DNA of 46,564 bases from the IMG/VR virus record IMGVR_UViG_3300028809_000024, positions 1 to 46,564 of that record. The stretch is one strand, 5' to 3'. Of the stretch, positions 3,819 through 38,060 are shown in pieces. A program made the translations under genes and the position numbers. This stretch comes from a virus. The notes beneath the pieces were generated by a model, which saw only the letters and a list, made by a program, of their open reading frames with translations, had not been told where the DNA came from and made no database searches. Positions within the stretch are counted from its first letter, which is position 1; each line of letters starts with the position of its first letter.

Positions 3819-4505
3819 TTACCATCCTTCCATTGGCATGTCGAGATACACGTTGACCTGACGCCTGATTTCGTTGTGATGCGGACGCCCTTGGTCATAC
3901 CCGGCGTCGTAGGACAGCCGACCGAACCAGCGGAAGCCCCGGCCCACGGCACGGGTTCCTTGATGGAACGAGCGGTCGTTGAAGTGGACGAGAAAGTTGG
4001 TTGGCACCTTCACCCGCTTCATCACGTCGTCGGCAATGTCCTGTTCGACCAACTCGTGCCACGCCTTGTACACCACACCATCGACGTGTGGATATGCCGC
4101 CTTGCCCACTGCGAACTCGGTCGGACAGATGTTGCCGTTGACGAGGGCAAGGATGTGCTTGGAGCGGTACTCGGGGTTCTCGTAGTTCGGCTGGCCGTCC
4201 CCACGGGAGCGAGGCACGTCGTCGTGATGCCAGCCGGGGATGCAAGGGAACCATCCCGGCATAAGCATGTGGACGCGGCTGTCGAAGCAGAAGTTCCGGT
4301 CGTAGCGGGTCACGCAGTCCGTTGCCAGACCGTCGTCGAACAGGGCGGCTTCCAAGAACGCCTTGGTGATCGGCCCTCCTGCGGCCAGCGCGAACGATGG
4401 CTGGGCCGAGAAGAACATCGGCTCGTTCTTGACAACTTCCTCCGGGAATACGGGCAGCGGACGGCCCACCCGGAAATCGCTGTCGATCTCGTACATTTTG
4501 TCCAT
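3819..4505 (-). CDS. Possible 2OG-Fe(II) oxygenase-like protein (228 aa)
   Basis: The assignment rests on pattern only. A GWHHDDVPR stretch could supply the HxD iron ligands, and a distal SFHQGTRAV...GFRWFGR could supply the second His and the 2-oxoglutarate-binding Arg. The spacing is plausible for the fold, but I cannot confirm it. The start MDKMYEID is placed just after the stop of the phosphoesterase gene (4507), with GGAGG 11 bases upstream. It is the last gene before the 3.72-kb promoter. After its stop, the +1 frame stays open and protein-like for about 30 codons (KDGKTFQRFNSLTRF...), so a frameshifted longer version is possible. It sits next to the amide-ligase cluster. Confidence 0.45.
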   Translation of the reverse strand: MDKMYEIDSDFRVGRPLPVFPEEVVKNEPMFFSAQPSFALAAGGPITKAFLEAALFDDGLATDCVTRYDRNFCFDSRVHMLMPGWFPCIPGWHHDDVPRSRGDGQPNYENPEYRSKHILALVNGNICPTEFAVGKAAYPHVDGVVYKAWHELVEQDIADDVMKRVKVPTNFLVHFNDRSFHQGTRAVGRGFRWFGRLSYDAGYDQGRPHHNEIRRQVNVYLDMPMEGW

Positions 4506-4506
4506 G

Positions 4507-5085
4507 TTACCACGGGCCTCCATTTTCTTCGATGATCTTGCTGAGCGACTTCGGGGTGAAGTCGATCTGTTCCATCGAGACGTTGACATAGCGAGGGTCG
4601 GGCACTTCGATTGGCTCGAAGCCGGACATGATGTTGCCGCAGCTATCCCGAAAAGGAGCTTCGGTCAGCACGTTGTTGGCGTGCAGATGCCCGTGGATGT
4701 TAATTTTCCATCTGCTCAAGCTGCCGGGGTGGATCGGAATGTGCGACATGATGACGCCCTTCTTCACCACATAGCCCCGAACGTCGTCGAACAGGTGGAA
4801 ATACTTCCGCATCTTCGGCGGCTCGTGGTTGCCGGGGACCAGCACGATGCGGCCCTTGAGGCGCGGGATGATCTGCTCGAACACCTTGGGATGGAACGCC
4901 ACGTCGCCCAGCAGGTAAACCCGGTCACCGTCCTTGACGGTTCGGTTCCAGTTGTCGATCATGGTTTCGTTCATCTCCGTCACGTCCTTGAAGTCGCGCA
5001 GCGGGACACCGGGCGACCGCTCGAACTTTAGGATGTTCGCGTGGCTAAAGTGCGGATCGGACGCAACCCATGTCCCACCGCCCAT
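4507..5085 (-). CDS. Calcineurin-like metallophosphoesterase (192 aa)
   Basis: All metal-site motifs of the family are in order: DPHFSH near the N-terminus, LLGDVAF, VPGNHEPP, MSHIPIHP, and GHLHANN. It is predicted to hydrolyse a phosphate mono- or diester with a di-metal centre; the substrate is unknown. It starts at the ATG overlapping the upstream stop (TGATG; a GTG one codon earlier is possible) and ends one base before the next start. Its place between the ligase cluster and the oxygenase-like gene suggests one transcript from the 12.4-kb promoter. It could remove a phosphate from an activated intermediate or degrade a nucleotide signal; neither is shown. Confidence 0.9.
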   Translation of the reverse strand: MGGGTWVASDPHFSHANILKFERSPGVPLRDFKDVTEMNETMIDNWNRTVKDGDRVYLLGDVAFHPKVFEQIIPRLKGRIVLVPGNHEPPKMRKYFHLFDDVRGYVVKKGVIMSHIPIHPGSLSRWKINIHGHLHANNVLTEAPFRDSCGNIMSGFEPIEVPDPRYVNVSMEQIDFTPKSLSKIIEENGGPW

Positions 5086-5402
5086 CACCCGAACTTCTTC
5101 TGGAGACGCTCATAGTCACGACGATCCTGCTCTTCCGCATACGCTCGCTGTTGTGCGGCCTGTGCCTCGCGGGTTTCAGCTTCCTTGTCCGTTTCCAGAC
5201 GGTCGCCGATAATCAGCAGCTCCGAACCCTCGCTATAGCCGAAGTTGTAATCGAGGTCGAAGCGAAACTTCGATACCCCGTTCTTCTCTTCTGCAACTAG
5301 GCGGTCGCGGAGACGGCCTACACCCTCTTCAAAGGACATGCCGTCGATGATGTCGGATATGTCCAGCTTAAAGCCGCCGACTTTGACTTGCTTCTCGGGC
5401 AT
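5085..5402 (-). CDS. Hypothetical protein, 105 aa
   Basis: The middle of the protein has a beta-rich look (FRFDLDYNFGYSEGSELLIIGD). It ends in a charged helix rich in Glu, Ala, Gln and Arg that may be a coiled coil. It starts one base after the upstream stop and overlaps the next gene by the TGATG junction, so it belongs to the ligase operon. No family recognised. Confidence 0.8.
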   Translation of the reverse strand: MPEKQVKVGGFKLDISDIIDGMSFEEGVGRLRDRLVAEEKNGVSKFRFDLDYNFGYSEGSELLIIGDRLETDKEAETREAQAAQQRAYAEEQDRRDYERLQKKFG

Positions 5403-5403
5403 C

Positions 5404-5733
5404 TTAGAACTCCTTCCATTCGTATGTGGACCCTGAGCGGGTCTTGAAGACGACGACCCGCACCAGATCAGGCTTGAAATCCGGGTTGTCGTGATCGTAT
5501 GCGGACTGCACCAGCTCGTCGGACACGATTTCCGTCACCGGGGTCGTCATCCAGTAGTCCTGCCACTGATATGAGCGAGCGCGGAAGCCGCCGACGGTCA
5601 CGTTCCAGCCGACGCGAGGGGCCTCCCCGTGCAACCGTTCGATCTCCTCGCCCGGTGCTGCCGAGCGTGCGATCATAGACATGGGGCCGCTGTCACCAAC
5701 CCCGTCCGAGAGACGCCGGAGGGAATAGGTCAT
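5404..5733 (-). CDS. Hypothetical protein, 109 aa
   Basis: No family recognised. It has a mixed alpha/beta look with aromatic runs (SYQWQDYWMTT) and the end VVFKTRSGSTYEWKEF. Its ATG overlaps the upstream stop (ATGA) and its stop lies one base from the next ATG, so translation is coupled throughout. Likely a small partner of the ligase operon, by position only. Confidence 0.8.
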   Translation of the reverse strand: MTYSLRRLSDGVGDSGPMSMIARSAAPGEEIERLHGEAPRVGWNVTVGGFRARSYQWQDYWMTTPVTEIVSDELVQSAYDHDNPDFKPDLVRVVVFKTRSGSTYEWKEF

Positions 5734-5900
5734 ACCTTGACCCCCTTCGGAAAGGCGTTAATCTCGAAGTCGTCGATGCTCTCCAGCCGACGCCAGTTTT
5801 CGGCGGTCTCCCGCAGATAGGCGGTGTTCGGGCTTTGGAGCGACTGCTCCCACTGACCATTGCGCTTGATGGCGAGATAGAACTGCTGCTTGTGTCCCAT
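5730..5900 (-). CDS. Small hypothetical protein, 56 aa
   Basis: Three ATGs lie in a row after AGGAG. The third (5900) gives 7-base spacing and the product MGHKQQFYLAIKRNGQWE...; longer readings upstream are out of the ribosome-site context. No family recognised. Its end overlaps the next gene by ATGA. Confidence 0.75.
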   Translation of the reverse strand: MGHKQQFYLAIKRNGQWEQSLQSPNTAYLRETAENWRRLESIDDFEINAFPKGVKV

Positions 5901-5940
5901 CATCATTCTCCTGTATTGTTCGTTACGATGGGCGATGTCC

Positions 5941-7020
5941 TCACTGGAAAGGCCGACGCGGGACACCCGCCAACTCCAAGAACTTGACAGCGATATCGAT
6001 GTTGGCAAGGACGTAATCCTTATCGCTTTCGACATAACCTTCTGCGAAGATGCCATTGGCTTCGACGTGGATGTCGCCGTACATATAGATCGGAGCACCC
6101 ATCGCCTTGAATTCGGCCACAACCGGGTCTGCCTGACCCGCGTGATCGTGAACCTGTTCCAGAACATCTACCAGTGGTTTCATTGGTTCCTCCTTCTGCT
6201 CTTCCCGATACCGATTGAAGAATTCGGCATACAGTTCCGCCGACCGTTCGGTCATCTCCGGAGCCGTGTTCATCTCGATGACGAACGCCTTCTGCCGGTT
6301 AGCGTCGTAGATCACGTCCAGACCTGCGAAGTGGAACTCGGGGAAGTACGTCCACACGTCCCGCACAGCCTTCTCGACCGCATCGGGAAGCTTCACCGGC
6401 TCACCGTCCACAGTCCACACGAAATAGCAGCCGTTGGCGTTGGTGCGGATGCGGATGTCATCCTTCGGCAGTCCCTTCGGCAAGAACTTCTGCTGAACTC
6501 CGATGATGACAGACGTACCGTCCGGATCGCGGCCCATGTGGATACGGTACTCCGCCGTCTTCGCTTCAAGCGAGACGTACAGAGGGGCGTCCACCAGCTG
6601 TGCGTTGTTTTCAGCAACGACGATACCTTCACCGTCCTTGCCCTTCACCTTGGTCCGACACAAGATCGGGAACGTGAGACGACCCTGTGCTTCCGCAGAG
6701 GCCGCTGCCTCGACGCGATCTTCTCCGCGCTTGACCGCGATAAAGTTCGGGACGTTCGGGCTACGAGCCGTCCGCTTGAAGAACTCACGCTTGTCCGTAG
6801 CTGCCCGCGTTTCCGGGTTGAGCGTAATCACGGTGTCACGGCTGCGAGGACCGTACCAGTTGAGGAAGTCTCCTGCGCCCCAGTTGATGAGAACATCACC
6901 ATCCTGTGGGGCGTATCGGCTTCCGTTGCGCAGGATTTTCTGACAGTCCAGTGCTGCCGCAACAGCAGTCGCACCTTCCGAAAGCTGATCCCACGGATAC
7001 ACGTAAATACGATTAGCCAT
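5941..7020 (-). CDS. ATP-grasp carboxylate-amine ligase (359 aa)
   Basis: Predicted to activate a carboxylate as acyl-phosphate with ATP and join it to an amine (RimK/glutathione-synthetase style). Seen: a Lys/Gly-rich ATP loop (TKVKGKDGEGIVV, residues 123-135) and a metal-binding end GLDVIYD (233-239) followed by FVIEMNTAPEM (246-256) with the acidic and Asn ligands. The last 80 residues form a separate module that begins at Met280, where AAGGAGG lies 5 bases ahead of an in-frame ATG (6183), so a short separate product is possible. The start overlaps the amidoligase stop (TAATG) behind AAGGAG. This is one of three ligases in the cluster. Confidence 0.88.
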   Translation of the reverse strand: MANRIYVYPWDQLSEGATAVAAALDCQKILRNGSRYAPQDGDVLINWGAGDFLNWYGPRSRDTVITLNPETRAATDKREFFKRTARSPNVPNFIAVKRGEDRVEAAASAEAQGRLTFPILCRTKVKGKDGEGIVVAENNAQLVDAPLYVSLEAKTAEYRIHMGRDPDGTSVIIGVQQKFLPKGLPKDDIRIRTNANGCYFVWTVDGEPVKLPDAVEKAVRDVWTYFPEFHFAGLDVIYDANRQKAFVIEMNTAPEMTERSAELYAEFFNRYREEQKEEPMKPLVDVLEQVHDHAGQADPVVAEFKAMGAPIYMYGDIHVEANGIFAEGYVESDKDYVLANIDIAVKFLELAGVPRRPFQ

Positions 7021-8348
7021 TAGTTTTCTCCTTCGTCCTCGACTTCACCAAAACCACCACCAGCTAGTTCGGCCAATGCGGCTGCAACTGCCGGGTTTTC
7101 CACTGGGATCGGTGGCATTACACGTGCATCCTCGAAACGACCCTGCTCGAAATTCCACTGAGGATCGTGCAACGGGATAGGTTCAGGTTGCATACCAGCA
7201 ACAGCGCGGGCACGACGACGGGGCGCTTCTTCTGGCTCGAACTCACGATCAATAGGATCGATATCTTCCTCTTCGTCTTCGTCAGCAAACGGGTTCTTCA
7301 ACCGCTCCTGTGCAAGCGCCCAGTTGGCAGCCCGAGCATCGCGCTCGGCCTTGAGAAGCTCCGTCTCGACAACTTCACCAGCTTCTTCCCGTTCCGGAAC
7401 GATGTCCCAGTTGGTTCCGAAGAGAAGCGGCTGCACCAGCAAGAAGCCCTTACGAACTTTGTCAGGTACATCTTCGTTGTCCGGAATGGCCAGCATCTCC
7501 GTCCACAGTCCCAGCAGATCGTGATCCCGAATGATCCGGTCGATGACACCATAGGCGCTCATAGCCGACACGTCCGAGGCCAGTTTCATTGGGTTGCCGT
7601 AGGTCGTATGCGCCTCCGTCCGAAGTGCCCACAGGAACTTGACCCACTGGATCACCATGTCCGGGTTTTCCGCCCCGCGAAGGCAGCGGAACTCGATGGA
7701 CCCGCGATCCCACAGCGGCTTGAGGTTCATGGAGTTGTACTTGAGACCTTGACCCCATTCAGGAGCACGTCCTTCAAGATGCTCCGTCCACTGCTCTACG
7801 GTTGCGAGGCTGTCCTTCACACGAAGACAGAACGGGTTGGACACCCGCTGATCGCCACACCAGTTGGTAGCGACCTCCTCGACCATCGACCACAGAGCGA
7901 TCATGCTGGTGATCGGCTTCGGACTGAACATAGAGAAGTTCAGATGAACGTGCGTCGAACACCGATTGGACAGTTGCAGTTTGCTGCCTGCCTTCTCGAA
8001 TTGCTCCCACAGGCCGACGAGCATCGGTTCCACCTCGGCAACCTTGATAGGTCCGGAGGTGATATACTCGAAGTTGTCGCCGCGAAGCGAGCCGTCCTTG
8101 GTCGCAACCCAATGCCGAGCGGTTTGCTCGGTCAGCAGCGGGAAACCCGTGTCCACCGGAATGTCACCAGCCCGTACGTGATCGGGACCGGGCAGGTCGT
8201 CACCCTCGATTTCGAGTTCCAACCCTACGTCTCCGTACACAGGCTTGAGCCTGATCGCCTTGCCCAGAAACATCTTGATCCGATAGTCACGAGTACCTTC
8301 CTTGACGACCTTGGCCGCTTCCATACGTTTGAAAATCGCTTCGCTCAT
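7020..8348 (-). CDS. Amidoligase, COOH-NH2 ligase of glutamine-synthetase fold (442 aa)
   Basis: Predicted ATP-dependent ligase that forms amide bonds. The signature residues of the phage/fungal amidoligase family are visible: GLELEIEGD (42-50), DGSLRGDNFEYITSGP (85-100), CSTHVHLNFS (130-139), and YNSMNLKPLWDRGSIEFRCLRG (204-225); the Glu and His residues would hold Mg-ATP. After about residue 330 comes an acidic, low-complexity tail (DEDEEEDIDPIDREFEPEE, then Pro/Ala rich), probably disordered. It overlaps both neighbours by start/stop codons. Known: the family was predicted by comparative genomics in clusters with ATP-grasp and glutamine amidotransferase genes. The substrate is unknown. Confidence 0.88.
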   Translation of the reverse strand: MSEAIFKRMEAAKVVKEGTRDYRIKMFLGKAIRLKPVYGDVGLELEIEGDDLPGPDHVRAGDIPVDTGFPLLTEQTARHWVATKDGSLRGDNFEYITSGPIKVAEVEPMLVGLWEQFEKAGSKLQLSNRCSTHVHLNFSMFSPKPITSMIALWSMVEEVATNWCGDQRVSNPFCLRVKDSLATVEQWTEHLEGRAPEWGQGLKYNSMNLKPLWDRGSIEFRCLRGAENPDMVIQWVKFLWALRTEAHTTYGNPMKLASDVSAMSAYGVIDRIIRDHDLLGLWTEMLAIPDNEDVPDKVRKGFLLVQPLLFGTNWDIVPEREEAGEVVETELLKAERDARAANWALAQERLKNPFADEDEEEDIDPIDREFEPEEAPRRRARAVAGMQPEPIPLHDPQWNFEQGRFEDARVMPPIPVENPAVAAALAELAGGGFGEVEDEGEN

Positions 8349-9013
8349 CGCACCACTACTCCTTGGTCACGGAAGATCGGGTTTTCTTCGATCTCTTCCT
8401 TGAGGTACTTGAACCGGCGTCCGAGCTGGACCGCGTGAGGATCGGAGAACAAACCGACCCGGTAGTCCTTCCTCCACAGCCACAGGTAGCCGTCTTCACT
8501 GGCCTCCAGCAAATACTCTCGGCTTACCGCAATCGCTACCTTCGGTTGACCGAGTAGTATTGCAGCTGTATCCGGGATAGTCGGATAATCCCCTGCCAGC
8601 ATCTCGCTGAAACCTTCGTCATACAGCAGATCGGATACCGTCAGGTTCTGGTGTCGATCCAGCCCTTCACCGAACTGGCTAAGCTCCCACATGACGACAT
8701 TCTCGTCACCGTAGCCACGCCGGGTCTGCCGAATAGGTCGAATGTCGGCCAGAACTGCACCATCGCTGTGGTTGATCCACCCCATCGGATCGAACCGGAA
8801 GTGATTGAACCCCGGATCGTCGATGTCCACCTCCTGACGCATACCGAGCTTGTCGTTCATAATGACACGAGCAGCGGCGTTCTCATCGTCGGGAATAGGC
8901 ATGTGGATGGACGTGACGTTGTACGCATGACCATTGTAGATGACCATGCGATAGCGAATGTGCTGGAGTGCCTGATCCATGTCCTCGAAGATACCGTAAG
9001 GATGTTTCGCCAT
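8345..9013 (-). CDS. Hypothetical protein of the amidoligase cluster, 222 aa
   Basis: I recognise no family. It lies between the two COOH-NH2 ligases, overlapping one by ATGA and following the other by 3 bases, so it is likely part of the same assembly. It is rich in acidic residues and aromatics (DPGFNHFRFDPMGW, YLWLWRKDY) and has no membrane segment or Cys cluster. An adaptor or substrate-handling protein is possible, by position only. Confidence 0.8.
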   Translation of the reverse strand: MAKHPYGIFEDMDQALQHIRYRMVIYNGHAYNVTSIHMPIPDDENAAARVIMNDKLGMRQEVDIDDPGFNHFRFDPMGWINHSDGAVLADIRPIRQTRRGYGDENVVMWELSQFGEGLDRHQNLTVSDLLYDEGFSEMLAGDYPTIPDTAAILLGQPKVAIAVSREYLLEASEDGYLWLWRKDYRVGLFSDPHAVQLGRRFKYLKEEIEENPIFRDQGVVVR

Positions 9014-9016
9014 ACA

Positions 9017-9817
9017 TCAATCTCCCATCATAAAGCGCAGGATCGACTTGCACTCGTCCACGTCCGAACGATTGATGGCATCGATCACGTCTGCGTCCAC
9101 GACATCGTGCGTGGCATCGTTGGTCACGAGCTGCTCGACTGCCTTGTGCGAAAGCGTGTACATCACGAAGCGCCGACGCTCGGACTTGATCCATGCGTTC
9201 GACGGTACACGATATTCACAGCCATACGGCTTGACGCGGAACGCACCGGCTGCGCCGTACAGAACGCGGCGGGTGGGGTCGGGGTCCATGATGACAGACG
9301 CACAACCGAGATATCGGTCGAGCATACGCACCAGCTTGGCCATCTGCTCGAAGTGAGCTTCTTCCCGGAAGTTGGGGAACGTACCCAGTCCGAAGTGGAT
9401 GTGACCAGCAGCCGTTCGCAGGCCGGGGATAGGTGGCTCGGGACGCGGGTTGGCTTCCATCGTATAGGCGTTGAAGTCGGGGTCGCACCCCAGTTCCTTT
9501 GCCTCATCCGGCATGATCGCCAGCGTCACCTCGTCGAACACCACCGAACCACGAATGTCGAACTCCAGACTGCTCGGAAGCATAGCTTCCATCTGGGCTA
9601 GAACAGACGTGATATTGTAGCTGAACTCGGCAGCCGTTGCAGCCGGAGCCGTGTTGAACTCCAGCGCCATACCATCGACCTGAACCGCACCGTCGTTGAC
9701 GGCGTGAGGCTCGGCCTTGGTGCCCGGGACAAGACCGTACGCTGATACCGGCATCTTGGTCTCACGATCACGGACAAACACTTCGGGATCACACCCGAGA
9801 GTGAGATTGATCGTCAT
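9017..9817 (-). CDS. phiEco32-type COOH-NH2 ligase (266 aa)
   Basis: Second glutamine-synthetase-fold ligase, of the type named after phage phiEco32. Motifs: LGCDPEVFV (7-15), VQVDGMALEFNTAPA (45-59), AAGHIHFGLG (136-145), and YGCEYRVPSNAWI (about 195-207). The first Glu, the Glu of LEFN and the HIH pair match the expected ATP/metal site. The start at 9817 has AAAGGAG upstream. Having this and the other amidoligase in one operon implies two different amide bonds or two steps of one product. Confidence 0.85.
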   Translation of the reverse strand: MTINLTLGCDPEVFVRDRETKMPVSAYGLVPGTKAEPHAVNDGAVQVDGMALEFNTAPAATAAEFSYNITSVLAQMEAMLPSSLEFDIRGSVVFDEVTLAIMPDEAKELGCDPDFNAYTMEANPRPEPPIPGLRTAAGHIHFGLGTFPNFREEAHFEQMAKLVRMLDRYLGCASVIMDPDPTRRVLYGAAGAFRVKPYGCEYRVPSNAWIKSERRRFVMYTLSHKAVEQLVTNDATHDVVDADVIDAINRSDVDECKSILRFMMGD

Positions 9818-9837
9818 AGTCTGCTTCTCCTTTCGTG

Positions 9838-11388
9838 TTAACGGGGACCGTCAAACCAGTTCCACTTACCGTCGTTCGGACGATTGGGCCGGGTCGTGAC
9901 CAGCTTTGAACATTTCTGCCCTTTTGGGATCACCAACGGTGGTGGGGACACATTGATCGTATCCGGGGCACGAAGGACCGCAGCCCCAAGATCGGGGATC
10001 GGATCGTCCAGCGGAAGTTCGAGCGCCTGAACATCGAGGAACAGCGCCGAGTTGGCCTCCATAGGAGGGACACCGGGGATGCCGAGTTCCGACCACGGAA
10101 TGTCGTCGTTGTCAGACACAGCAGTTTGCTTGTCCATCGCCTGTTGCCAGTCGTTATCGAACCAGTCCTTGCAGCAGTTCGTACACACAGCGAAGGAATA
10201 GTCCTTAGCCAGATGCCCGATCTCACGAGGATCGGTGAAGAAGGTTCCGCAGGAATGGCACGAACCGTCCGTACGGTATTCCAGCAGCTCGCGGAACTTG
10301 ATCTCGTGGCTGCCCGGAGCGCATACGTAAGCCACGCCTGCCACGTTTCGCCACAGCTTTCCCGACTTGTCGTTCCACTTGATGCCGTTTCCCTGCTTCT
10401 TCTCCTCCTCTTTCGACTTGAGGATCGAGCCGAGGTTGGGTACCCTCATCGCGCCGCTGTCGTTCTGACCGCACATGGCCCACTTCTGGTCCTTGATGTC
10501 CCACTTGACGTAGTAGAACTCACCATCGTCGTTGGCCGTGTTCGTCGTACCATTCTTCCCAAAGTTGTTCGTATCGATCCCGAGGTCTTCGATCATCTCC
10601 TTCAGGATACGCTCCCCCGTGAAACCGTCGAACTGGACCGTGATCTCCTTGACGGGTTCCGGCTTTCCCTCTAAAGGGATGTCTTCGAGTTGCACCACCG
10701 TGCCTTCCTCGTCGAGCTGCCACTTGCGCCAGACGTTGGTCGGGAGCTTGGTGAAGAAGCGACCATCGTCCCACTTCTCGAACTTCGTTCGATCCTTTTC
10801 TCCCGCACGCACCATGCCTTGGATCATCCAATACTCGGATGCCCAGTACAGGTTGCCGTCCTTGCCACGAGCCAGCCACATCGGGCGCTCGTCGTTGCGC
10901 AGCATGTTGAGCGTCTGCTCATCGTCGTCCCACCAGACGAAGCACCACGCCCCGTAGATGCGGCTGATGGTCTCCTGCACCCCGTAGTAGGCGAAGTTAT
11001 AGAACACCGCCTGACTGTCGGATGCGAACACCTCGTTCGTACCCCACTGGAGTTGCTCCCGCCAGTCGCCTCGAAGCGTACCGTTGTGAGCGCCGATGAT
11101 GTTGTCGAAGATGAACGGATGAGCCGTCTCACGATTGACGTGCCCGATGGTCGCCGACCGCACATGCCCGATCACGCATTGGGCGCCCTTGTCCGGTAGC
11201 TTGAAGTAAAAGGGCGGACTGCCCACACGCTTCGAGACGTATGCCGCCTCTTCGAGATCGGCGGGAACGACGCCAACACCGACACTGTCCATGCCGCGAA
11301 GAGCACAGATGAAAAGACCTTCCTCGATCTTACTCTCGTCGGTTGCACCGGCAATCTTCTTGCCAAACATTCCTACATGACCGCACAT
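9838..11388 (-). CDS. Class II glutamine amidotransferase with C-terminal Cys-rich domain (516 aa)
   Basis: Ntn-type glutaminase: the start MCGHVG exposes Cys2 as nucleophile after Met removal. GHVRSATIGHVNRETAHPF and GAHNGTL are the Arg and Asn/Gly parts of the glutamine pocket. It would release ammonia from glutamine or transfer a glutaminyl group. After the roughly 260-residue amidotransferase domain comes a second region with four cysteines in pairs (CHSCGTF and CTNCCKDW), a likely zinc ribbon, then an acidic/Pro-rich tail. A longer frame to 11490 exists, but the Cys2 rule and AGGAG 7 bases upstream fix the start at 11388. It feeds the neighbouring ligases by inference. Confidence 0.9.
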   Translation of the reverse strand: MCGHVGMFGKKIAGATDESKIEEGLFICALRGMDSVGVGVVPADLEEAAYVSKRVGSPPFYFKLPDKGAQCVIGHVRSATIGHVNRETAHPFIFDNIIGAHNGTLRGDWREQLQWGTNEVFASDSQAVFYNFAYYGVQETISRIYGAWCFVWWDDDEQTLNMLRNDERPMWLARGKDGNLYWASEYWMIQGMVRAGEKDRTKFEKWDDGRFFTKLPTNVWRKWQLDEEGTVVQLEDIPLEGKPEPVKEITVQFDGFTGERILKEMIEDLGIDTNNFGKNGTTNTANDDGEFYYVKWDIKDQKWAMCGQNDSGAMRVPNLGSILKSKEEEKKQGNGIKWNDKSGKLWRNVAGVAYVCAPGSHEIKFRELLEYRTDGSCHSCGTFFTDPREIGHLAKDYSFAVCTNCCKDWFDNDWQQAMDKQTAVSDNDDIPWSELGIPGVPPMEANSALFLDVQALELPLDDPIPDLGAAVLRAPDTINVSPPPLVIPKGQKCSKLVTTRPNRPNDGKWNWFDGPR

Positions 11389-11404
11389 AGACTTCTCCTG
11401 TGTG

Positions 11405-11572
11405 TTAACCGATACTCCGCACAAGCACCCTGCTTCCGTGACGGAGTGTACCAGAGTTTCTGATCTTCCTTGCTCGACGATCCGTCTCATTATACGTATC
11501 GACCGGACCTCGAAGGTCTATGTCACCGCCTCGATGAACGATAACACACAGGAAGTTTTTGTAGTGGCTCAT
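11405..11572 (-). CDS. Possible small gene, 55 aa
   Basis: This ORF fills the gap between the two amidotransferase genes: its ATG is 2 bases after the upstream TGA, and its TAA is just before the next ribosome site. The product is basic (MSHYKNFLCVIV..., many Arg near the end). No good ribosome site is seen, so it would depend on coupling. No family recognised. Confidence 0.45.
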   Translation of the reverse strand: MSHYKNFLCVIVHRGGDIDLRGPVDTYNETDRRARKIRNSGTLRHGSRVLVRSIG

Positions 11573-11573
11573 A

Positions 11574-12323
11574 TCAGCAGCAACCAGCGCCGATACGCGC
11601 TGCCCCTTGCTTGATGACCTCGGGAACGATCAGACCTTCCCGCTCGATGCCCATGCGAGGCTCGGCAAGGAAGTCGATCACTTTCTGGGCAGCCCACACG
11701 CTGAACTCGTCACCACCCCACTCAGGATGGCCCTGAATACCGATGATGTTGTCCTTGCGATAGCGGTAGCCCTCGACCTCGGTGATGGGCTTCTCCGCCG
11801 TCGAATAGATGGGACCGTCAGCACAGACGAACACGGGCGAGATAGGTTCGCGAGGCTCGGCCATCAGTTCGAAGCCGTTGGTCGCAGCCGACTTGCCGTT
11901 GGTCCATTCCATCCGCACCATCTGGTGATGCGTCGAACAGGTGTTCGGAATAATCGTCCCGTCATCGCGGTCACGCAGATCGTGGAAGACACCAGCGTGT
12001 CCCTCGATATGCTGCCACAGCTTGCCATCCTTCATGGCGTGCAGGAACTGGCTGCCCCGGCAAATGCCGAGCATCGGGATACCCGCCGAGATAGCGTAGT
12101 CGAAGATGTCCGTTTCCGTTGCATCACGCACCAGATCGACACCCGAAGCCACGTTGGTTTCGCCGTAGATGGTTGGGTTCACGTCCGCACCGCCGGTGAA
12201 GACGATCAGGTTCGCATCCTCGATAGCGGTTGCAAGCTCGGCTCCGACGAAGTTGCGTACCCACACCTTCACGTCTTCGCTGCCTGCTCCGTCAAGGACG
12301 TACGCGACAATATGCTTAGCCAT
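11574..12323 (-). CDS. Class I glutamine amidotransferase-like, peptidase C26 type (249 aa)
   Basis: Flavodoxin-like amidotransferase/gamma-glutamyl hydrolase. The triad is visible: Cys88 in GICRGSQ, His199 and Glu201 in IQGHPEW. FTGGADVNPTIYGE (42-55) is typical of the C26 group (PuuD/gamma-glutamyl hydrolase), which cleaves gamma-glutamyl amides. The start MAKHIVAYV at 12323 is chosen for GGAG 8 bases upstream over a longer frame to 12356. It is the first gene after the 12.4-kb promoter, behind a hairpin. In this cluster it may trim a gamma-glutamyl group or supply ammonia. Confidence 0.9.
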   Translation of the reverse strand: MAKHIVAYVLDGAGSEDVKVWVRNFVGAELATAIEDANLIVFTGGADVNPTIYGETNVASGVDLVRDATETDIFDYAISAGIPMLGICRGSQFLHAMKDGKLWQHIEGHAGVFHDLRDRDDGTIIPNTCSTHHQMVRMEWTNGKSAATNGFELMAEPREPISPVFVCADGPIYSTAEKPITEVEGYRYRKDNIIGIQGHPEWGGDEFSVWAAQKVIDFLAEPRMGIEREGLIVPEVIKQGAARIGAGCC

Positions 12324-12348
12324 TCGATAGTCTCCACATATGCGAAAA

Positions 12349-12374
12349 CCCAGCAAGCGGTATTGCTTACTGGG
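12349..12374 (-). terminator. Leader hairpin with short U run (attenuator-like)
   Basis: Minus strand: CCCAGTAAGC, 6-base loop AATACC, GCTTGCTGGG, then TTTTC. This is a 10-bp stem with one G-T pair, sitting about 25-50 bases after the expected start of the 12.4-kb transcript and just before the ribosome site of the C26 gene. The U run is short, so partial termination or a leader structure is more likely than a full stop. Confidence 0.5.
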
Positions 12375-12405
12375 GTATACTTTTAACCACTGCTACTACA
12401 AGTAT

Positions 12406-12433
12406 ATTATACCACGTATTTCGAAAATGTCAA
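12406..12433 (-). promoter_or_regulatory. Sigma70-type promoter for the amide-ligase operon
   Basis: Minus strand: TTGACA (12433-12428), 16-base spacer, TATAAT (12411-12406) with TGG before it. It shares GCTTGACATTTTC with the promoter at 19339-19367. It drives the genes from the C26 amidotransferase downward. Confidence 0.8.
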
Positions 12434-12454
12434 GCAAAATCGTACACGCGGAGG

Positions 12455-12466
12455 GATGACAGACGT
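12455..12466 (-). repeat. ACGTCTGTCATC motif copy, after a stop codon
   Basis: Exact 12-mer on the minus strand, directly after the stop of the 117-residue gene. Other junction copies lie at 15271-15282, 16805-16816 (one mismatch) and 17025-17036. Confidence 0.6.
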
Positions 12467-12467
12467 A

Positions 12468-12821
12468 TTAATCCGTCAGCGAGATACCTACCGAACACAG
12501 CTTCCGGATGGCAGCCATGTCGGCTTGGGTCTGGAACTGGTGATGGTTCTTCCCGAGCTTGGTCTTGCGACGGTTGCCACGAGGAGGCCGGAGCTTCTGT
12601 GCGCCGATGGGCTGCCTACATGGAGCCACATACTTGCGAGGGATCGCACGAGGCCACTTGGAACCGAAGTCCTCATCGGCATCGTACACCAGCGTCACCT
12701 TCTTCTCGTAGGGCACCTCGATACCCCCGGCCATGCGCGATGCCGGAACCGTAGCGGTGATCTTTTTCATCCCCGCCTTCTTCATGATGCGCTTCTCGAT
12801 GCGCCGCAGCAGGCTGCTCAT
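12468..12821 (-). CDS. Hypothetical basic protein, 117 aa
   Basis: A strongly basic protein (runs such as RRIEKRIMKKAGMKK and RPPRGNRRKTKLGK), perhaps nucleic-acid binding. No family recognised. Its ATG overlaps the stop of the 42-residue gene upstream (ATGA). It is the last gene before the 12.4-kb promoter and is followed by a copy of the ACGTCTGTCATC motif. Confidence 0.75.
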   Translation of the reverse strand: MSSLLRRIEKRIMKKAGMKKITATVPASRMAGGIEVPYEKKVTLVYDADEDFGSKWPRAIPRKYVAPCRQPIGAQKLRPPRGNRRKTKLGKNHHQFQTQADMAAIRKLCSVGISLTD

Positions 12822-12946
12822 TTTCGATACTCCGGGTTGTTGTTCTTGGTGGGCTTAATGCGATTGACCGTGGCCACCCGCATACGCTGATGTACCCGCC
12901 GCTGGGCGAGCATCTCTGCCCGTTCCTTCTTGTTACGTTGCGGCAT
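12818..12946 (-). CDS. Small basic protein, 42 aa
   Basis: MPQRNKKERAEMLAQRRV... ends in PEYRK and TGA, overlapping the next ATG. AAAGGAG lies 8 bases ahead of the start. Highly charged, mostly basic; no family recognised. Confidence 0.7.
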   Translation of the reverse strand: MPQRNKKERAEMLAQRRVHQRMRVATVNRIKPTKNNNPEYRK

Positions 12947-12961
12947 AGAACGTCTCCTTTG

Positions 12962-13054
12962 TTAGCGCCAAGGGGCGCATTCGATAAACAGAAACCACAC
13001 CAAGACCGCCAGCACAAGGCCAAGCGGCACGAGGTTGACGATCTTCTTCACCAT
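12962..13054 (-). CDS. Single-pass membrane peptide, 30 aa
   Basis: MVKKIVNLVPLGLVLAVLVW is a positive start followed by one hydrophobic helix. GGAGGAG lies ahead of the ATG and overlaps the upstream stop. It is one of several tiny membrane proteins in this genome; function unknown. Confidence 0.65.
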   Translation of the reverse strand: MVKKIVNLVPLGLVLAVLVWFLFIECAPWR

Positions 13055-13059
13055 CGGCG

Positions 13060-14184
13060 TTATCTCCTCCATTCTCGGCAGGCTTCGCCCACCTTGCCGA
13101 GCAACCACACAAAGCCCGGATCATACGACCGTTGGAACGCACCGGCTGCTACGTCCGTCTTCTTGATCGGGTTGCCCCACAGCTGGGGAACTTCCTTCTC
13201 GACAAGAAGCTCGGGACGTTCCTTCTGGACCTGCTTGAGCCATCCGTTTTGGCTGTTCCCATAGACGGCTTCCCACGCTACAAGGTTAGACGTGCTGTAC
13301 GTGTAGCGGGCAGGCAGCTTCATGTAATCGTGGCAGTCCTTGCTGCAAGGCGGCTCGTACTTAGCCACCCCTTCCGCGAACCGAGCGATGGTTGTCGTGG
13401 ATGCCACGTCACAGAACACGTGCCCACGTGCCCCGTAGGTGAATAGTTGGCCGTCGTCTCCCTTGTGGAAGCCGATGACCTTCTGCACCACACCGAAGGC
13501 AAGGTTCGGATCGACACCGCGCTGGACGAGATGATACCACTCCTCGACCAGCTCGACAGACTCACCCGGCATACGCCAAGCAACTGCGATGGTGTGGATC
13601 ACGAACGAAGGTGCGTCCAGATCGAGGATGTACCCGTACCTGCTAAGCGTTCGCACGTCGCGCGGCCCAACAAAGAACCGGGAGAAATGCGAATGGTTGC
13701 GAAGCCAGTCGTAGTACATCTGGCAGGCACGAAGACGCTCACCACGGAACGGGGCACACTCGTCCCACTCCGCGTACTGGGGCTTGAGCTGGTGGTTGGA
13801 CCAACCCACGAGATAGCGGTACGGATAGTTACGACGCTTGATCTTAGGAGGGGTCAGATACACGAACTGTTGCTGCCATTCCTTAGTCTGATCGTTGTAG
13901 TATTCGTACCCTCCGCCCCAAGGGTTGGCCTTGGCATTCCACCGGCTCTCGTACTTGCGGTCGCGGTCGTCCGGATGCACCAGCATACTCGAAAGACACG
14001 CATGACAGACGCGATCAAGCTGAACGTCCACCTTCTCGATGCCCACGACAGCACAGTTAGTGACGTTCTGGCTCTCCCGCGCGGCGTCGCGCTTATCGCG
14101 CAACAGGTTCTCGGCAATGCCAAGTACCACCGGCGCGGGTTTGCGCAGGCGGATATCCCGCAGCCGTATATTCGTCTGCTTCAT
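13060..14184 (-). CDS. Hypothetical protein, 374 aa
   Basis: No family recognised. The sequence has scattered Cys/His (RVCHACLSSMLVHPDD and PPCSKDCHDY), which could bind a metal. It is rich in Tyr/Trp and has a basic N-terminus (MKQTNIRLRDIRLRKP). GGAG lies 6 bases ahead of the ATG. Its position in the leftward early block, between unnamed genes and the ligase cluster, suggests a host-takeover or metabolic role, but nothing in it proves this. Confidence 0.8.
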   Translation of the reverse strand: MKQTNIRLRDIRLRKPAPVVLGIAENLLRDKRDAARESQNVTNCAVVGIEKVDVQLDRVCHACLSSMLVHPDDRDRKYESRWNAKANPWGGGYEYYNDQTKEWQQQFVYLTPPKIKRRNYPYRYLVGWSNHQLKPQYAEWDECAPFRGERLRACQMYYDWLRNHSHFSRFFVGPRDVRTLSRYGYILDLDAPSFVIHTIAVAWRMPGESVELVEEWYHLVQRGVDPNLAFGVVQKVIGFHKGDDGQLFTYGARGHVFCDVASTTTIARFAEGVAKYEPPCSKDCHDYMKLPARYTYSTSNLVAWEAVYGNSQNGWLKQVQKERPELLVEKEVPQLWGNPIKKTDVAAGAFQRSYDPGFVWLLGKVGEACREWRR

Positions 14185-14196
14185 AGCAGTCTCCGT

Positions 14197-14916
14197 TTAT
14201 TCGGGAACGTTAGGCTCCCAGCCATAGTGACGAGCGATGAACTCGACCTTGGCACGGCTGATTGACTGACAACCGATGAGGACACCGGTTTTTGTCACGC
14301 CGACAACTTGATAGCCGTATCCACCTCCGATTGGTTCATGACCCGGCTTCGGGTCTCGGACCCGATCCGTAGGATAGAGATCACACTGCGCCCAGTATTT
14401 TGAAGCTCGTTTCCACAACTTTTCGGCGAACGCCTTGCTGACCGAATATCCGTTGTGACGAATTTCCTCTCCGCCTACTCGGAAGGCCACCTCATTACCA
14501 GTGTAAGGCGTCTTCCATTGGTAACTGTTCTTGAGGGTGCCCATCAGTCGGTCGAGAATTGGCCGCACCTTGGCCAGCGTGGCCTGTTCATCTGCCGAAA
14601 TGTCCAGCTCATTGAACTCGATTTCGAGGGTGACATCCGTGCCATTGAGCAGTCGGTCGCGCAGCGAGTTCTTGTCGCGAAGAGTAGCAAACGACGGAAC
14701 GAACCGAACGTTCTTACCCACAGCCGAAGCGATCAGTTCGGTCTGTTGCACCGGGGTCTGCTTTGCGAACATGGCACCATCGATCACGAAGAAAGATGGC
14801 AGGTCACGGAACAGCGGCGACAGCGGCACCGGAGGTACGACAGCCTTGGCTGCACGCGGTTTCTTTGTGGCGACGGGCTTGCTCGCCTTTGCTTTCGCAG
14901 TCTTGGGAGTAGTCAT
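14197..14916 (-). CDS. Hypothetical protein with Lys/Ala/Pro-rich N-terminus, 239 aa
   Basis: The first 35 residues are a histone-H1-like tail (repeats of AK and KP: TPKTAKAKASKPVATKKPRA), followed by a folded part with no family I recognise (DVTLEIEFNELDISADEQ and a C-terminal GYGYQVVGVTKTGVLIGCQS). The tail may bind nucleic acid. AAGGA lies 9 bases before the start. Confidence 0.8.
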   Translation of the reverse strand: MTTPKTAKAKASKPVATKKPRAAKAVVPPVPLSPLFRDLPSFFVIDGAMFAKQTPVQQTELIASAVGKNVRFVPSFATLRDKNSLRDRLLNGTDVTLEIEFNELDISADEQATLAKVRPILDRLMGTLKNSYQWKTPYTGNEVAFRVGGEEIRHNGYSVSKAFAEKLWKRASKYWAQCDLYPTDRVRDPKPGHEPIGGGYGYQVVGVTKTGVLIGCQSISRAKVEFIARHYGWEPNVPE

Positions 14917-14951
14917 ATCGATAGTTCCTTTCTACAAAACGACGGTTGAAA

Positions 14952-15254
14952 TTACACCTCGATGGTGCGCCCCTTCTTGCCCCACTGGTGGAGCGGAACG
15001 CGGTTGTGACGATGCTGCGCAAGGAACCGAGACATCATCGGAGTAGTGTGCCCAATGATGCACGACGCGAGGTCGAGCTTGTCATAGCTCTCACGCTGCT
15101 GCTTGACGGCGCTTTCAGCCACAGCCTTCACGAAGAAGGGCTTGCGCCGACCGCTGATATGTTCCGAGCTGGACTTCTTCCGGTTCTCGCCGGGACGCTT
15201 GGGCCGACGCCCACCGACCGGACGCTCCGGGTAGTCCGCTTTGTTTGCCGACAT
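14952..15254 (-). CDS. Hypothetical basic protein, 100 aa
   Basis: Begins MSANKADYPERPVGGRRPKR; very basic N-terminal half (GRRPKRPGENRKKSSSE). The second ATG after AGGAG (15254, 7-base spacing) is chosen. No family recognised. Confidence 0.75.
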   Translation of the reverse strand: MSANKADYPERPVGGRRPKRPGENRKKSSSEHISGRRKPFFVKAVAESAVKQQRESYDKLDLASCIIGHTTPMMSRFLAQHRHNRVPLHQWGKKGRTIEV

Positions 15255-15270
15255 ATTCATTCTCCTTGCT

Positions 15271-15282
15271 GATGACAGACGT
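15271..15282 (-). repeat. ACGTCTGTCATC motif copy, gene junction
   Basis: Exact copy of the 12-mer, just after the stop of the 202-residue gene (15290) and before the ribosome site of the 100-residue gene. Confidence 0.6.
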
Positions 15283-15289
15283 ATACGTG

Positions 15290-15898
15290 TTACGCCTTTA
15301 TCCCGCACCACTTAGCCAGTGCATCGGCGGCGCGGTGTTGACGCTCGCCGATCTGCTTATCCTTGTCGCGTTCGAGTTGCTGAGCTTCCGCCTTGGCGAT
15401 GGCAGCTTCGATCATTTTCCGTTCACGCTCGTTGAAGTCGTTGCCGAACGGCTTGACATCCTTCCAACGAATATACGGATCAGGCACTCGCGAGTACACA
15501 TAATCACGAATGTATGCCTTGTCGTACACCGACCAGTATGGCACGTACTTTACCAACTCGATACGCTCCGTCTTGAACCGGAACGTATGCGCAGCTTCTT
15601 CACACGCCTTACCATACCGACGGTACTCAGGGCTGTCGCCCATGACGAACTCGACAGCAACCGAGGCTTCGTGGCCCGATGTCTTTTCACTGCCCTTCTT
15701 GGTACGCATGTAGAAAGACTTGGGAGGGTCTTTATCGCTCTGCCACTTGAACTCTTCGGCTCCAAGTATCTCAGCACACACCATTTGAGCCAGCACGTAG
15801 CTAGGGCTGTCACACACAGCCTCAACTACAGGCGAAAGTGGCTGACGCACGACGGATGCACATGCGTCCCGCCACACGCGGATCAGAGCGGCGATCAT
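15290..15898 (-). CDS. Hypothetical protein, 202 aa
   Basis: No family recognised. The C-terminal third is a charged helix (NERERKMIEAAIAKAEAQQL) that may be a coiled coil. Its start overlaps the upstream stop by ATGA. Confidence 0.8.
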   Translation of the reverse strand: MIAALIRVWRDACASVVRQPLSPVVEAVCDSPSYVLAQMVCAEILGAEEFKWQSDKDPPKSFYMRTKKGSEKTSGHEASVAVEFVMGDSPEYRRYGKACEEAAHTFRFKTERIELVKYVPYWSVYDKAYIRDYVYSRVPDPYIRWKDVKPFGNDFNERERKMIEAAIAKAEAQQLERDKDKQIGERQHRAADALAKWCGIKA

Positions 15899-16164
15899 CC
15901 CCGCATCGAACCCGGCTCGTGCAAGCCGAGAACCGTAGCGGGGCTGACCTGCTTGCGATAGTCCAGATCGCGCTGATAGCCAGCCTTGCGAGCAGCCAGA
16001 CGTGCGAGGGCACGCCGACGATGACGACCACCCGGATAGGTCTGGCCCTCACGGGTGCGAGGCGGAGCCGCCGTGTTGTTGCCGACAGTCAGGCCGATTG
16101 CCCGAGCTTCGCCTGAGTTGATGCGGCGGATTTTCCCGCCAGCGACGACGTAATGCACGTTCAT
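15895..16164 (-). CDS. Hypothetical basic protein, 89 aa
   Basis: Starts MNVHYVVAGGKIRRI and contains an Arg-rich segment (GGRHRRRALARLAARK). The start at 16164 overlaps the stop of the cyclotransferase-like gene (ATGA), with GGAG 10 bases upstream. No family recognised. Confidence 0.75.
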   Translation of the reverse strand: MNVHYVVAGGKIRRINSGEARAIGLTVGNNTAAPPRTREGQTYPGGRHRRRALARLAARKAGYQRDLDYRKQVSPATVLGLHEPGSMRG

Positions 16165-16541
16165 GGTTTCCACACTCCTTCTTCGATGAGCGACCCGTTA
16201 GGTGGCTCGAGGTTGAACTCATATACCCACACCTTGTGGCCACCCCACGTGACCACCTGCTTGCGGGAATACAGGTCGGGATAGCCCTCGTAACGGTCGA
16301 GTGCCCGCACCATCAGAGGGCAGGCATCGTCATCAGGCAGGCGATACACTTCGCCATGTACCTGAAACACAGACGAGAACGGATTGGCCGTAGCATCCCT
16401 TACTCCGGGGAAACCGCCAAGACTGTACAGCTTGCCACCGATCTTGTCAGGACCGATGAAGGTTGCCCCGTCGAGCATGAGGTTGGCATGGTAGCCACGC
16501 TTGAGCGTACCGTATACGAACAGCAAATGGCCCGCGTTCAC
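16161..16541 (-). CDS. Gamma-glutamylcyclotransferase-like protein (126 aa)
   Basis: GGCT/AIG2-like fold. The N-terminal FVYGTLKRGYHAN (8-20) is the substrate-binding loop signature, and ALDRYEG (80-86) holds Glu85 at the place of the catalytic Glu. Such enzymes release a gamma-glutamyl group as 5-oxoproline (GGCT, BtrG). GTG start with AAGG upstream; the codon overlaps the stop of the membrane protein before it. In a genome that also has two COOH-NH2 ligases, an ATP-grasp ligase and two glutamine-amidotransferase-type proteins, it is likely the removal or maturation step of the same pathway (inference). Confidence 0.88.
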   Translation of the reverse strand: MNAGHLLFVYGTLKRGYHANLMLDGATFIGPDKIGGKLYSLGGFPGVRDATANPFSSVFQVHGEVYRLPDDDACPLMVRALDRYEGYPDLYSRKQVVTWGGHKVWVYEFNLEPPNGSLIEEGVWKP

Positions 16542-17341: not shown

Positions 17342-17884
17342 TTAGTTGATGGTACGCACTTCACCAGCAATGCGCTTGGCGTGAGCCGCGACAGTCGGTT
17401 CGATACCGTCCTTGTCCGCAATAGCGTCGATACGCTTGGCCAGCCCTTCCAGCATCTTGAGCAGCGTCTTCAGGTCATAGACCTTTTCCTCGGGAGTACC
17501 TTCGGCAAGCTTCCAAAACGGCTCAGCATCCGCACCAGCGATATCCCATTTGGACAGCTTGGCAGCGTCGGTAGTCAGTTTGCCATAGCTGGCGGTATAG
17601 CCGACGTTATCGCCCTGATCGGACAGCTTCACCGCGATAGGTGAATACTTCGCGAACCATTGAATGAGCATGGTCCGACGCATGGATGCGGGCATAGCCT
17701 TCACCAACATGAGGGCACGAGTGCAGTCGCCATGACCGAAGCCACCCGCATCGACAGGGGCAGCGTGCTTGAGGATGGAAAGGGCGAGGCTGTGCGCCTG
17801 ATCGTTCAGCTTGGCCGCATTCGTGGTAAACTTGACGGTAGCTGCGTCGATGGCCTTGAGACCCTTGATGATTTTGGTAGCCAT
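17342..17884 (-). CDS. Hypothetical protein, 180 aa; first gene of the leftward block
   Basis: No family I can name. The central part (HGDCTRALMLVKAMPASMRR) recalls conserved unknowns of podoviruses. Mostly helical with a Lys-rich C-terminal helix; Cys only in HGDC. AAAGGA lies 7 bases before the ATG. It directly follows the long leader from the 19.35-kb promoter, which makes it the first leftward, probably early, product. Confidence 0.8.
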   Translation of the reverse strand: MATKIIKGLKAIDAATVKFTTNAAKLNDQAHSLALSILKHAAPVDAGGFGHGDCTRALMLVKAMPASMRRTMLIQWFAKYSPIAVKLSDQGDNVGYTASYGKLTTDAAKLSKWDIAGADAEPFWKLAEGTPEEKVYDLKTLLKMLEGLAKRIDAIADKDGIEPTVAAHAKRIAGEVRTIN

Positions 17885-37817: not shown

Positions 37818-38055
37818 CGAAGGAAAGCGCATAGCAAGACGTATGCAGACGCTAACACAGGCAGAGCGTATCGCTATGCTCGAAACTCAGGTCGTTAATC
37901 TCAGCGATAACGTCACTTCGATGAACAACAAACTGGACGATCTCCTCGCCCTCCGCAACAAGGGGGCAGGAGCGTTCTGGCTGGCTACAATTCTGTGCGG
38001 TACTACCATGGTAGGTGTAGTCGGCTGGCTGTTCAACTACTTCAAGGGAGCGTAA
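37810..38055 (+). CDS. Holin-like membrane protein, XhlA-type layout (81 aa)
   Basis: An N-terminal coiled coil (RIAMLETQVVNLSDNVTSMNNKLDDLL), one membrane helix (AFWLATILCGTTMVGVVGWLF) and a short basic end, as in haemolysin XhlA-type holin partners. Its start overlaps the large ejection gene (ATGA) and it leads the lysis cassette. Confidence 0.7.
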   Translation: MNDEGKRIARRMQTLTQAERIAMLETQVVNLSDNVTSMNNKLDDLLALRNKGAGAFWLATILCGTTMVGVVGWLFNYFKGA

Positions 38056-38060
38056 CACAG

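Follow-up and report, generated by a model that had tools for sequence, protein, structure and literature searches.

An amide-ligation gene cluster in a viral genome belongs to a published phage cassette and carries two constant orphan proteins

Genes and catalytic residues at the locus

The 46,564-nucleotide stretch of viral DNA analysed here (the window) carries a cluster of amide-ligation genes on its minus strand. All the enzymes named in the original prediction were present, with their catalytic residues intact. The features are as follows.

3819..4547, minus strand: 242-aa protein, phrog_1843 (PHROG 3e-51), not a cassette member
4507..5088, minus strand: calcineurin-like phosphoesterase (PHROG 547, 2e-50), an optional downstream neighbour
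5941..7020, minus strand: ATP-grasp ligase (PHROG 2599, 7e-31; Pfam Ddl_C sub-threshold only)
7020..8348, minus strand: Amidoligase_2, the second glutamine-synthetase-like ligase (PF12224, 1.8e-5, above cutoff; PHROG 7469, 2e-43)
8345..9013, minus strand: non-enzymatic 222-aa protein, constant in the cassette (its family is present at 121 of 124 loci)
9017..9817, minus strand: phiEco32-type COOH-NH2 ligase, glutamine-synthetase-like (PF14395, 1.5e-9; PHROG 3815, 1e-74)
9838..11388, minus strand: class II (Ntn) glutamine amidotransferase (GATase II) with a C-terminal CxxC...CxxC domain (PF13522, 1e-16)
11574..12323, minus strand: peptidase C26/class I glutamine amidotransferase (PF07722, 3e-19), triad C88-H199-E201 intact
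12406..12433, minus strand: sigma-70 promoter, TTGACA-16-TATAAT with extended -10 (12/12 consensus matches), directly upstream of the C26 gene
13060..14184, minus strand: 374-aa orphan, constant cassette member and first gene of the commonest seven-gene order (88 of 124 loci)
16161..16541, minus strand: gamma-glutamyl cyclotransferase (GGCT, AIG2-like; PF06094, 2e-18), a satellite gene outside the operon

Profile searches matched PF12224, PF14395 and the glutamine amidotransferase families as expected, but the ATP-grasp ligase remained below threshold in Pfam and was recovered by PHROG 2599 instead. We then compared each family with about 100-135 homologues. The catalytic positions were near-invariant, and every core enzyme of the window kept them; a check for lost ATP or metal residues found none. 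Invariant or nearly so were D10, E12, E53, H139, H141, R183, R194, K196, E201 and R203 in the COOH-NH2 ligase, and E44/E46/E48, H133/H135 and E219/R221 in Amidoligase_2. Strictly invariant were K77, R122, E157, R159, D235, E249 and N251 in the ATP-grasp ligase, C2, R77, H90, N102, G103 and D124 in the class II enzyme, and the C26 triad (93-102 homologues). The class II gene starts at an ATG at 11388, which gives the required Met-Cys N-terminus, and has the ribosome site GGAGAA. The catalytic Glu85 of GGCT is present in the window and in 41/41 aligned sequences. Because the catalytic residues are invariant, the enzymes are probably active. The Cys-rich extra domain that had been singled out in the class II protein is indeed there, but it is not unusual: its Cys motif occurs in 106 of 119 homologues, against 6 of 2380 shuffles.

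The best PDB match of the ATP-grasp ligase was RimK (8e-9 over about 200 columns), with D-Ala-D-Ala ligase at 6e-5, so that by sequence it appears closest to the RimK glutamate ligases; its phmmer matches to the homologues of PA11, KZY1, RIO-1 and PaP3 ranged from 8e-24 to 4e-15. The nearest solved relatives of the C26 enzyme were a Pseudomonas probable GATase and PuuD, a gamma-Glu-GABA hydrolase. A gamma-glutamyl or glutamate chemistry is consistent with the nearest solved relatives, RimK and PuuD. A PDB sequence search with the two glutamine-synthetase-like ligases gave no significant match.

Promoter and gene spacing

The core had been described as tightly spaced behind one promoter. The promoter does lie before the C26 gene, and the genes from GATase II to the ATP-grasp ligase are tightly packed, two junctions overlapping (by 4 and 1 bp) and two leaving gaps (3 and 20 bp); however, 185 bp separate C26 from GATase II. 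A second 12/12 sigma-70 site lies at 3734-3706, ahead of the primase/helicase block. In phage HP1, the cassette genes are "expressed immediately" and are among the first expressed (PMC7082346). Given this and the perfect sigma-70 promoter of the window, early expression is suggested, and the best explanation is that the cassette is an immediate-early operon read by the host sigma-70 RNA polymerase.

Gene order and distribution of the cassette

We compared 124 cassette loci (11 phage records and 113 IMG/VR contigs), 44 of them with full flanks. The commonest order, found in 63 of the 124 and also in the window, runs from the 13060-14184 ORF through C26, GATase II, the COOH-NH2 ligase, the 222-aa protein and the amidoligase to the ATP-grasp ligase. 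Two ligases flanking a 222-residue protein had been regarded as unusual; this turned out to be the standard arrangement, seen in 117 of 123 loci. The core genes stood together, in fixed order, in 43-44 of the 44 full-flank loci, and the constant parts of the cassette are five enzymes and two orphan proteins, which defines the targets for cloning and mutagenesis. Co-occurrence and catalytic residues thus both bear out the grouping of these genes as an amide- or peptide-ligation cluster. That they are unrelated auxiliary genes, neighbours by chance, is extremely improbable: GGCT, the phosphoesterase and the phrog_1843 gene are variable, as such an explanation would have it, but the core is fixed, and five neighbouring ORFs of the window were absent from every other cassette locus. 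GGCT itself, placed in the cluster by the original prediction, is present and intact, but it lies 2 kb upstream of the 13060-14184 gene, outside the unit formed by the promoter and C26. It was found in 40 of the 124 loci (16 of the 44 with full flanks), at variable positions.

The families of the COOH-NH2 ligase and of the class II amidotransferase each occurred in 317 phage records out of 50,697, and the host lists of the two are nearly identical. A degenerate-pattern scan of bacterial and archaeal genomes, which distant relatives may escape, gave only 5 matches in 84,980. A non-phage bacterial home was rejected, the matches being just five MAG contigs, some as long as a phage genome, and the cassette appears to be phage-specific. 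Several hundred sequenced short-tailed phages carry it, with Pseudomonas, Escherichia, Vibrio, Aeromonas and others as hosts; the hosts seen are Gram-negative. The same arrangement is found in the annotated PA11, PaP3, phiEco32, RIO-1, Privateer and LAh_9. Megablast against phages gave no near-identical relative of the window. The BASEL collection of E. coli phages includes close relatives (Bas88, Bas89, Bas90 and Bas92), which makes the cassette question directly testable.

The cassette comprises 7-8 genes, about 8-9 kb of the 46.5-kb genome, and in the window it adjoins the primase-helicase and DNA polymerase genes; both its order and its location beside replication genes are conserved. This location would suit the synthesis of an amide-decorated base in phage DNA. 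We consider that very unlikely, as none of the proteins scanned (a subset of the ORFs) pointed to a thymidylate-synthase-like, hydroxymethylase or deazaguanine gene, and the DNA of tf, a cassette phage, was cut by HaeIII and sequenced normally (PMC3517423).

Comparison with published cassettes

Iyer et al. (2009) are said to have grouped amide- and peptide-ligation clusters of this kind computationally, and Hardies (2013) is reportedly to be credited with the peptidoglycan modification cassette of RIO-1, HP1, PA11 and CW02. The cassette of these four phages is described under that name (PMC5498523), and peptidoglycan modification or superinfection exclusion has been published as a hypothesis for it (PMC5498523, PMC11945000, PMC6256558). 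The cluster of the window is this already published cassette, a member of the RIO-1/HP1, PA11, LUZ24/PaP3/tf and phiEco32 kind, and is not new. "Peptidoglycan modification" is a name resting on prediction; the literature searched yielded neither a biochemical nor a genetic test of the cassette's substrate or product.

RIO-1, HP1, PA11 and CW02 share with the window GATase II, the COOH-NH2 ligase, an orphan of ~160-220 aa, the amidoligase, the ATP-grasp ligase and GGCT, in the window's order, and their cassettes likewise adjoin primase-helicase and DNA polymerase A genes. In RIO-1, GGCT directly precedes GATase II and the searched flank holds no C26 match, whereas in the window C26 is part of the operon and GGCT stands away from it. 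The PA11-type phages (Zobellviridae, Paundecimvirus) have a C26-like GATase, GATase II, COOH-NH2 ligase, orphan, amidoligase and ATP-grasp ligase in identical order; their core proteins are 24-40% identical to those of the window, and PA11 has no GGCT match within the region compared. LUZ24/PaP3/tf and phiEco32 share these families, GGCT among them, and also have the orphan between the ligases, but GATase II follows the amidoligase, extra small ORFs are present and the searched flanks show no C26 match.

The two orphan proteins

Two constant orphan proteins in a known cassette merit attention. The family of the 222-aa protein was recovered only by iterated profiles; a single-sequence viral scan yielded no tblastn-confirmed relative. 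Its AF2 model (pLDDT 91.4) has a predicted N-terminal SH3/Tudor-like barrel, which aligns with Tudor domains at Z about 5 over 50-54 residues (5.1 over 54), and no Tudor or SH3 family stands out beyond that score. In BFVD the model matched proteins of CW02 and other phages. SspH matched weakly in 6 of 58 relatives (best 3e-5), and those of the six that were scanned again gave 0.003-0.05, below cutoff. We found no catalytic signature, no whole-fold match in the PDB and no significant PDB sequence match. Therefore, judging from the model, the protein is likely an adaptor, scaffold or carrier.

The ORF at 13060-14184, a conserved cassette member present in 38 of the 44 full-flank loci, had been overlooked in the original prediction. 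The model of its 374-aa product has a confidence of only 67; a Foldseek search of viral models (BFVD) returned only unnamed relatives, which belong to the same phages (CW02, CVT22, RIO-1, GAP52). Single-linkage clustering, which grouped it with the COOH-NH2 ligase, and a weak match to glutamine synthetase (Z 3.6) hinted at a third ligase of the glutamine-synthetase fold. This reading was rejected as unproven, since only short spurious ORFs made the cluster link, with no direct edge. Profile comparisons were null, a weak test that also fails to join the two known ligases.

Proposed pathway and its target

From the enzyme families, we infer an amide-ligation pathway that is expressed immediate-early and fed by glutamine, and whose substrates are most likely precursors of the cell envelope; we assign this reading a probability of about 0.4. 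The three ATP-dependent ligases would form one cytoplasmic pathway together with both glutaminase-type enzymes, the class II Ntn and the class I/C26 protein. The class II enzyme would release ammonia or glutamate from glutamine, and the ligases would activate carboxylates with ATP and join them stepwise to amines. Gamma-glutamyl groups would be trimmed or removed by C26 and GGCT. The 222-aa barrel protein would hold the ligases or their substrate, and a further step may fall to the 374-aa protein. The likeliest target would be an envelope precursor that bears a peptide, probably the peptidoglycan stem, and the infected cell would be altered early, e.g. against superinfecting phages. The peptidoglycan-amidating MurT-GatD, in which a glutaminase is coupled with an ATP-dependent ligase, offers an analogy of logic, not homology, as its folds differ from those of the cassette. 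MurT/GatD are described in PMC3267633.

An envelope target is supported by the published proposals, by the Gram-negative hosts and by the lysis region, in which a holin is paired with a transglycosylase-like lysin, which cuts glycan and would not depend on stem peptides. However, such hosts and lysins are common and therefore weak evidence. Searches for a cell-wall enzyme fused to or neighbouring the cassette, and for domain fusions in extra-long family members, found none. The ATP-grasp ligase resembles the protein-glutamate ligase RimK more closely than D-Ala-D-Ala ligase, and this speaks for a protein or peptide as the target rather than for the stem peptide.

One possible but doubtful alternative is a soluble gamma-glutamyl or short-peptide metabolite (e.g. 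a protected amine, thiol or signalling inhibitor) that aids takeover or counters defence and is recycled by GGCT and C26. Butirosin synthesis, in which BtrJ adds and BtrG removes a gamma-glutamyl group, is a model for it. The glutamate-directed relatives (RimK, PuuD and the GGCT family) fit such a product, all the proteins appear cytoplasmic by sequence, and genes for PRPP synthetase and nicotinate/nicotinamide phosphoribosyltransferase lie beside the cassettes of LAh_9 and Slicky01. On the other hand, no gene indicates a specific acceptor, and GGCT is present in just 16 of the 44 loci with full flanks, so that removal is not constant.

Modification of proteins is unlikely. Host or phage residues would be glutamylated or amidated, the RimK-like ligase being the extending enzyme, and either orphan, of 222 or 374 aa, would serve as the carrier, the substrate or a recognition subunit. 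In favour are the nearness of the ATP-grasp ligase to RimK, the position between the ligases of a conserved barrel protein that lacks catalytic residues, and early expression, which suits host takeover. Against it, LysW-type carriers are charged on a C-terminal Glu, whereas the 222-aa family shows no C-terminal conservation, and two glutamine-synthetase-like ligases plus two glutaminases exceed the needs of a protein glutamylase.

Tentatively, the cassette may be no wall modifier but a biosynthetic line confined to phages, yielding a new amide adduct derived from glutamate, either soluble or attached to protein. The 222-aa protein would be its substrate carrier or scaffold, and the 374-aa protein another enzyme that has escaped recognition. 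If true, this would be a major overlooked early takeover pathway in short-tailed phages of Gram-negative bacteria.

Variable neighbours of the cassette

The phosphoesterase gene accompanied the cassette in 25 of 124 loci (9 of the 44 with full flanks). The phrog_1843 family occurs in 454 phage records, many of them T4-like, and in 0 of the 44 full-flank loci. The 242-aa protein had no Pfam match; in pairwise alignment it shows an HHDD...H...R pattern resembling 2OG-Fe(II) oxygenases, and its HHDD and FH..GT..V..G.RWF motifs are conserved with phage S72.

Organization of the cassette

Pfam and PHROG profiles placed every enzyme named in the original prediction where it had been located from the sequence alone. 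The cluster is real and belongs to a known kind, the seven-gene "peptidoglycan modification cassette", hypothesised to change the host surface and prevent superinfection (PMC5498523; also PMC11945000, PMC6256558, PMC10580990). Its published carriers are RIO-1, phiEco32, 7-11, PA11, tf, MR299-2, LUZ24, PaP3 and CW02 (PMC5498523). In the window, a minus-strand unit begins behind the first promoter listed here and runs through peptidase C26, a class II amidotransferase (GATase II), the COOH-NH2 ligase, a 222-aa protein, the amidoligase, the ATP-grasp ligase, three small ORFs, a phosphoesterase and a phrog_1843 protein. Consecutive genes in the stretch between GATase II and ATP-grasp are spaced by -4 to 20 bases, negative values being overlaps.

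12433-12406, minus strand: sigma-70 promoter before the cassette, perfect (12/12), TG-extended -10
3734-3706, minus strand: sigma-70 promoter before the primase block, perfect (12/12), TG-extended -10
3819-4547, minus strand: phrog_1843 protein with the pattern HHDD...FH..GT..RWF

Judged from its sequence, the product of 3819-4547 is probably a 2OG-Fe(II) oxygenase. Many T4-like, Aeromonas, Mycobacterium and Gordonia phages encode a phrog_1843 protein, and in Stenotrophomonas phage S72 the gene is followed by a phosphoesterase-sized ORF, as in the window.

Conservation among relatives

By tblastn, the COOH-NH2 ligase family and the class II enzyme were each detected in 317 of 50,697 phage records, with nearly identical host breakdowns. 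The same cassette lies in annotated regions of PA11, PaP3, phiEco32, RIO-1, Privateer, LAh_9, Slicky01 and others, usually adjoining primase-helicase and DNA polymerase. A scan of 84,980 genomes turned up 5 loci; within the sensitivity of that scan, the cassette is essentially absent from bacteria.

Iterated profiles built on each protein of the window were run against 124 loci, 113 of them IMG/VR loci recruited via the ligase; the loci are partly inter-related, so that the counts measure cohesion and not independent events. GATase II, COOH-NH2 ligase, amidoligase and ATP-grasp were each present in all 44 loci with full flanks. Among these 44, the count was 40 for C26, 38 for the 13060-14184 family, 16 for GGCT (gamma-glutamyl cyclotransferase) and 9 for the phosphoesterase; no locus had the phrog_1843 protein. 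The proposed neighbourhood check bore out the association of the 222-aa family with the ligases (43/44). Its position between two ligases, once thought unusual, is the rule, the same slot recurring in 117 of 123 loci; 63 of the 124 carry the seven genes in precisely the order seen in the window. Most unconserved neighbour ORFs (e.g. 12468-12821, 14197-14916, 15290-15898) matched in no other locus, and therefore the profile method does not score everything as conserved. That both unnamed proteins, of 222 and 374 aa, are constant cassette parts is a contribution of this work.

A phrog_1448 protein without assigned function (17342-17884, minus strand) recurs near the cassette in 32/44 full-flank loci. 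In LAh_9 and Slicky01, genes for PRPP synthetase and nicotinamide/nicotinate phosphoribosyltransferase adjoin the cassette (L014:14266-17404, L013:2994-5275), a possible link to NAD salvage. In the cassette of Stenotrophomonas phage StenR_269 (L010:4051-6449), a COOH-NH2 ligase match was absent; genes there are annotated as L-glutamine synthetase, PRPP amidotransferase and D-Ala-D-Ala ligase.

Catalytic residues and unnamed proteins

Loss of the ATP or metal residues was looked for; the catalytic residues proved essentially invariant across ~100-135 homologues, and all are present in the window. They comprise Cys2/Arg77/His90/Asn102/Gly103/Asp124 in GATase II, Cys88/His199/Glu201 in C26, the ligase E-x-E, H-x-H and E-x-R motifs, Lys77/Asp235/Glu249/Asn251 in ATP-grasp, and Glu85 in GGCT, with catalytic roles as established for these families. 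Showing this retention in every core enzyme is a further contribution. The Cys-rich domain of GATase II is present as predicted but is not special to the window: the C-terminal CxxC...CxxC occurs in 106/119 homologues versus 6/2380 shuffles and is thus a family feature. The nearest solved structures of C26 are a Pseudomonas glutamine amidotransferase and PuuD.

The 222-aa protein was modelled confidently (pLDDT 91.4). No PDB match was found for the whole fold; residues 1-75 resemble Tudor/SH3-like barrels (Z about 5), SspH was weakly matched by 6 of 58 relatives, and Foldseek matches among viral models include CW02. Because a few glycines and arginines alone are conserved in the family, an enzymatic role is unlikely, and we infer an adaptor, scaffold or carrier. 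The 374-aa protein (13060-14184) modelled poorly (confidence 67). The proteins related to it in structure are likewise unnamed and come from the same cassette phages, RIO-1 and GAP52 among them. We tested a hint that it might have a glutamine-synthetase fold in divergent form and found no support.

Possible function

That the cassette is enzymatic is highly probable, far surer than its target. We favour, at roughly 40%, a glutamine-fed, ATP-driven amide-ligation pathway that would act early on a cell-envelope precursor. HP1 cassette genes are expressed immediately upon infection (PMC7082346), which agrees with the host-type promoter of the window and argues against a late virion-only role. A soluble glutamyl metabolite as the product is a somewhat weaker candidate. 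The nearest solved structures of ATP-grasp are RimK glutamate ligases, followed by D-Ala-D-Ala ligase; the resemblance to RimK speaks for modification of a protein, which we consider less likely still. Modification of DNA is unlikely, since DNA of the cassette phage tf was cut and sequenced normally (PMC3517423) and no base-modification-like enzyme was seen among the window proteins scanned. Our literature search found no paper testing the cassette product, and we contribute a list of laboratory phages suited to substrate testing.

Genome context

Matches to portal, internal virion and DNA-ejection proteins mark the 46,564 bases as a podovirus-like phage genome. Its 203-base terminal repeat (1-203 and 46362-46564, one mismatch at position 76) suggests that the assembly is nearly complete and either terminally redundant or circular. 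At 37995-39199 (plus strand), a holin precedes a transglycosylase-like lysin that carries an EF-hand-like motif of 12 residues, and a nucleoside deoxyribosyltransferase-like protein (PHROG 12607, 7e-12) lies at 40412-41005 (minus strand).
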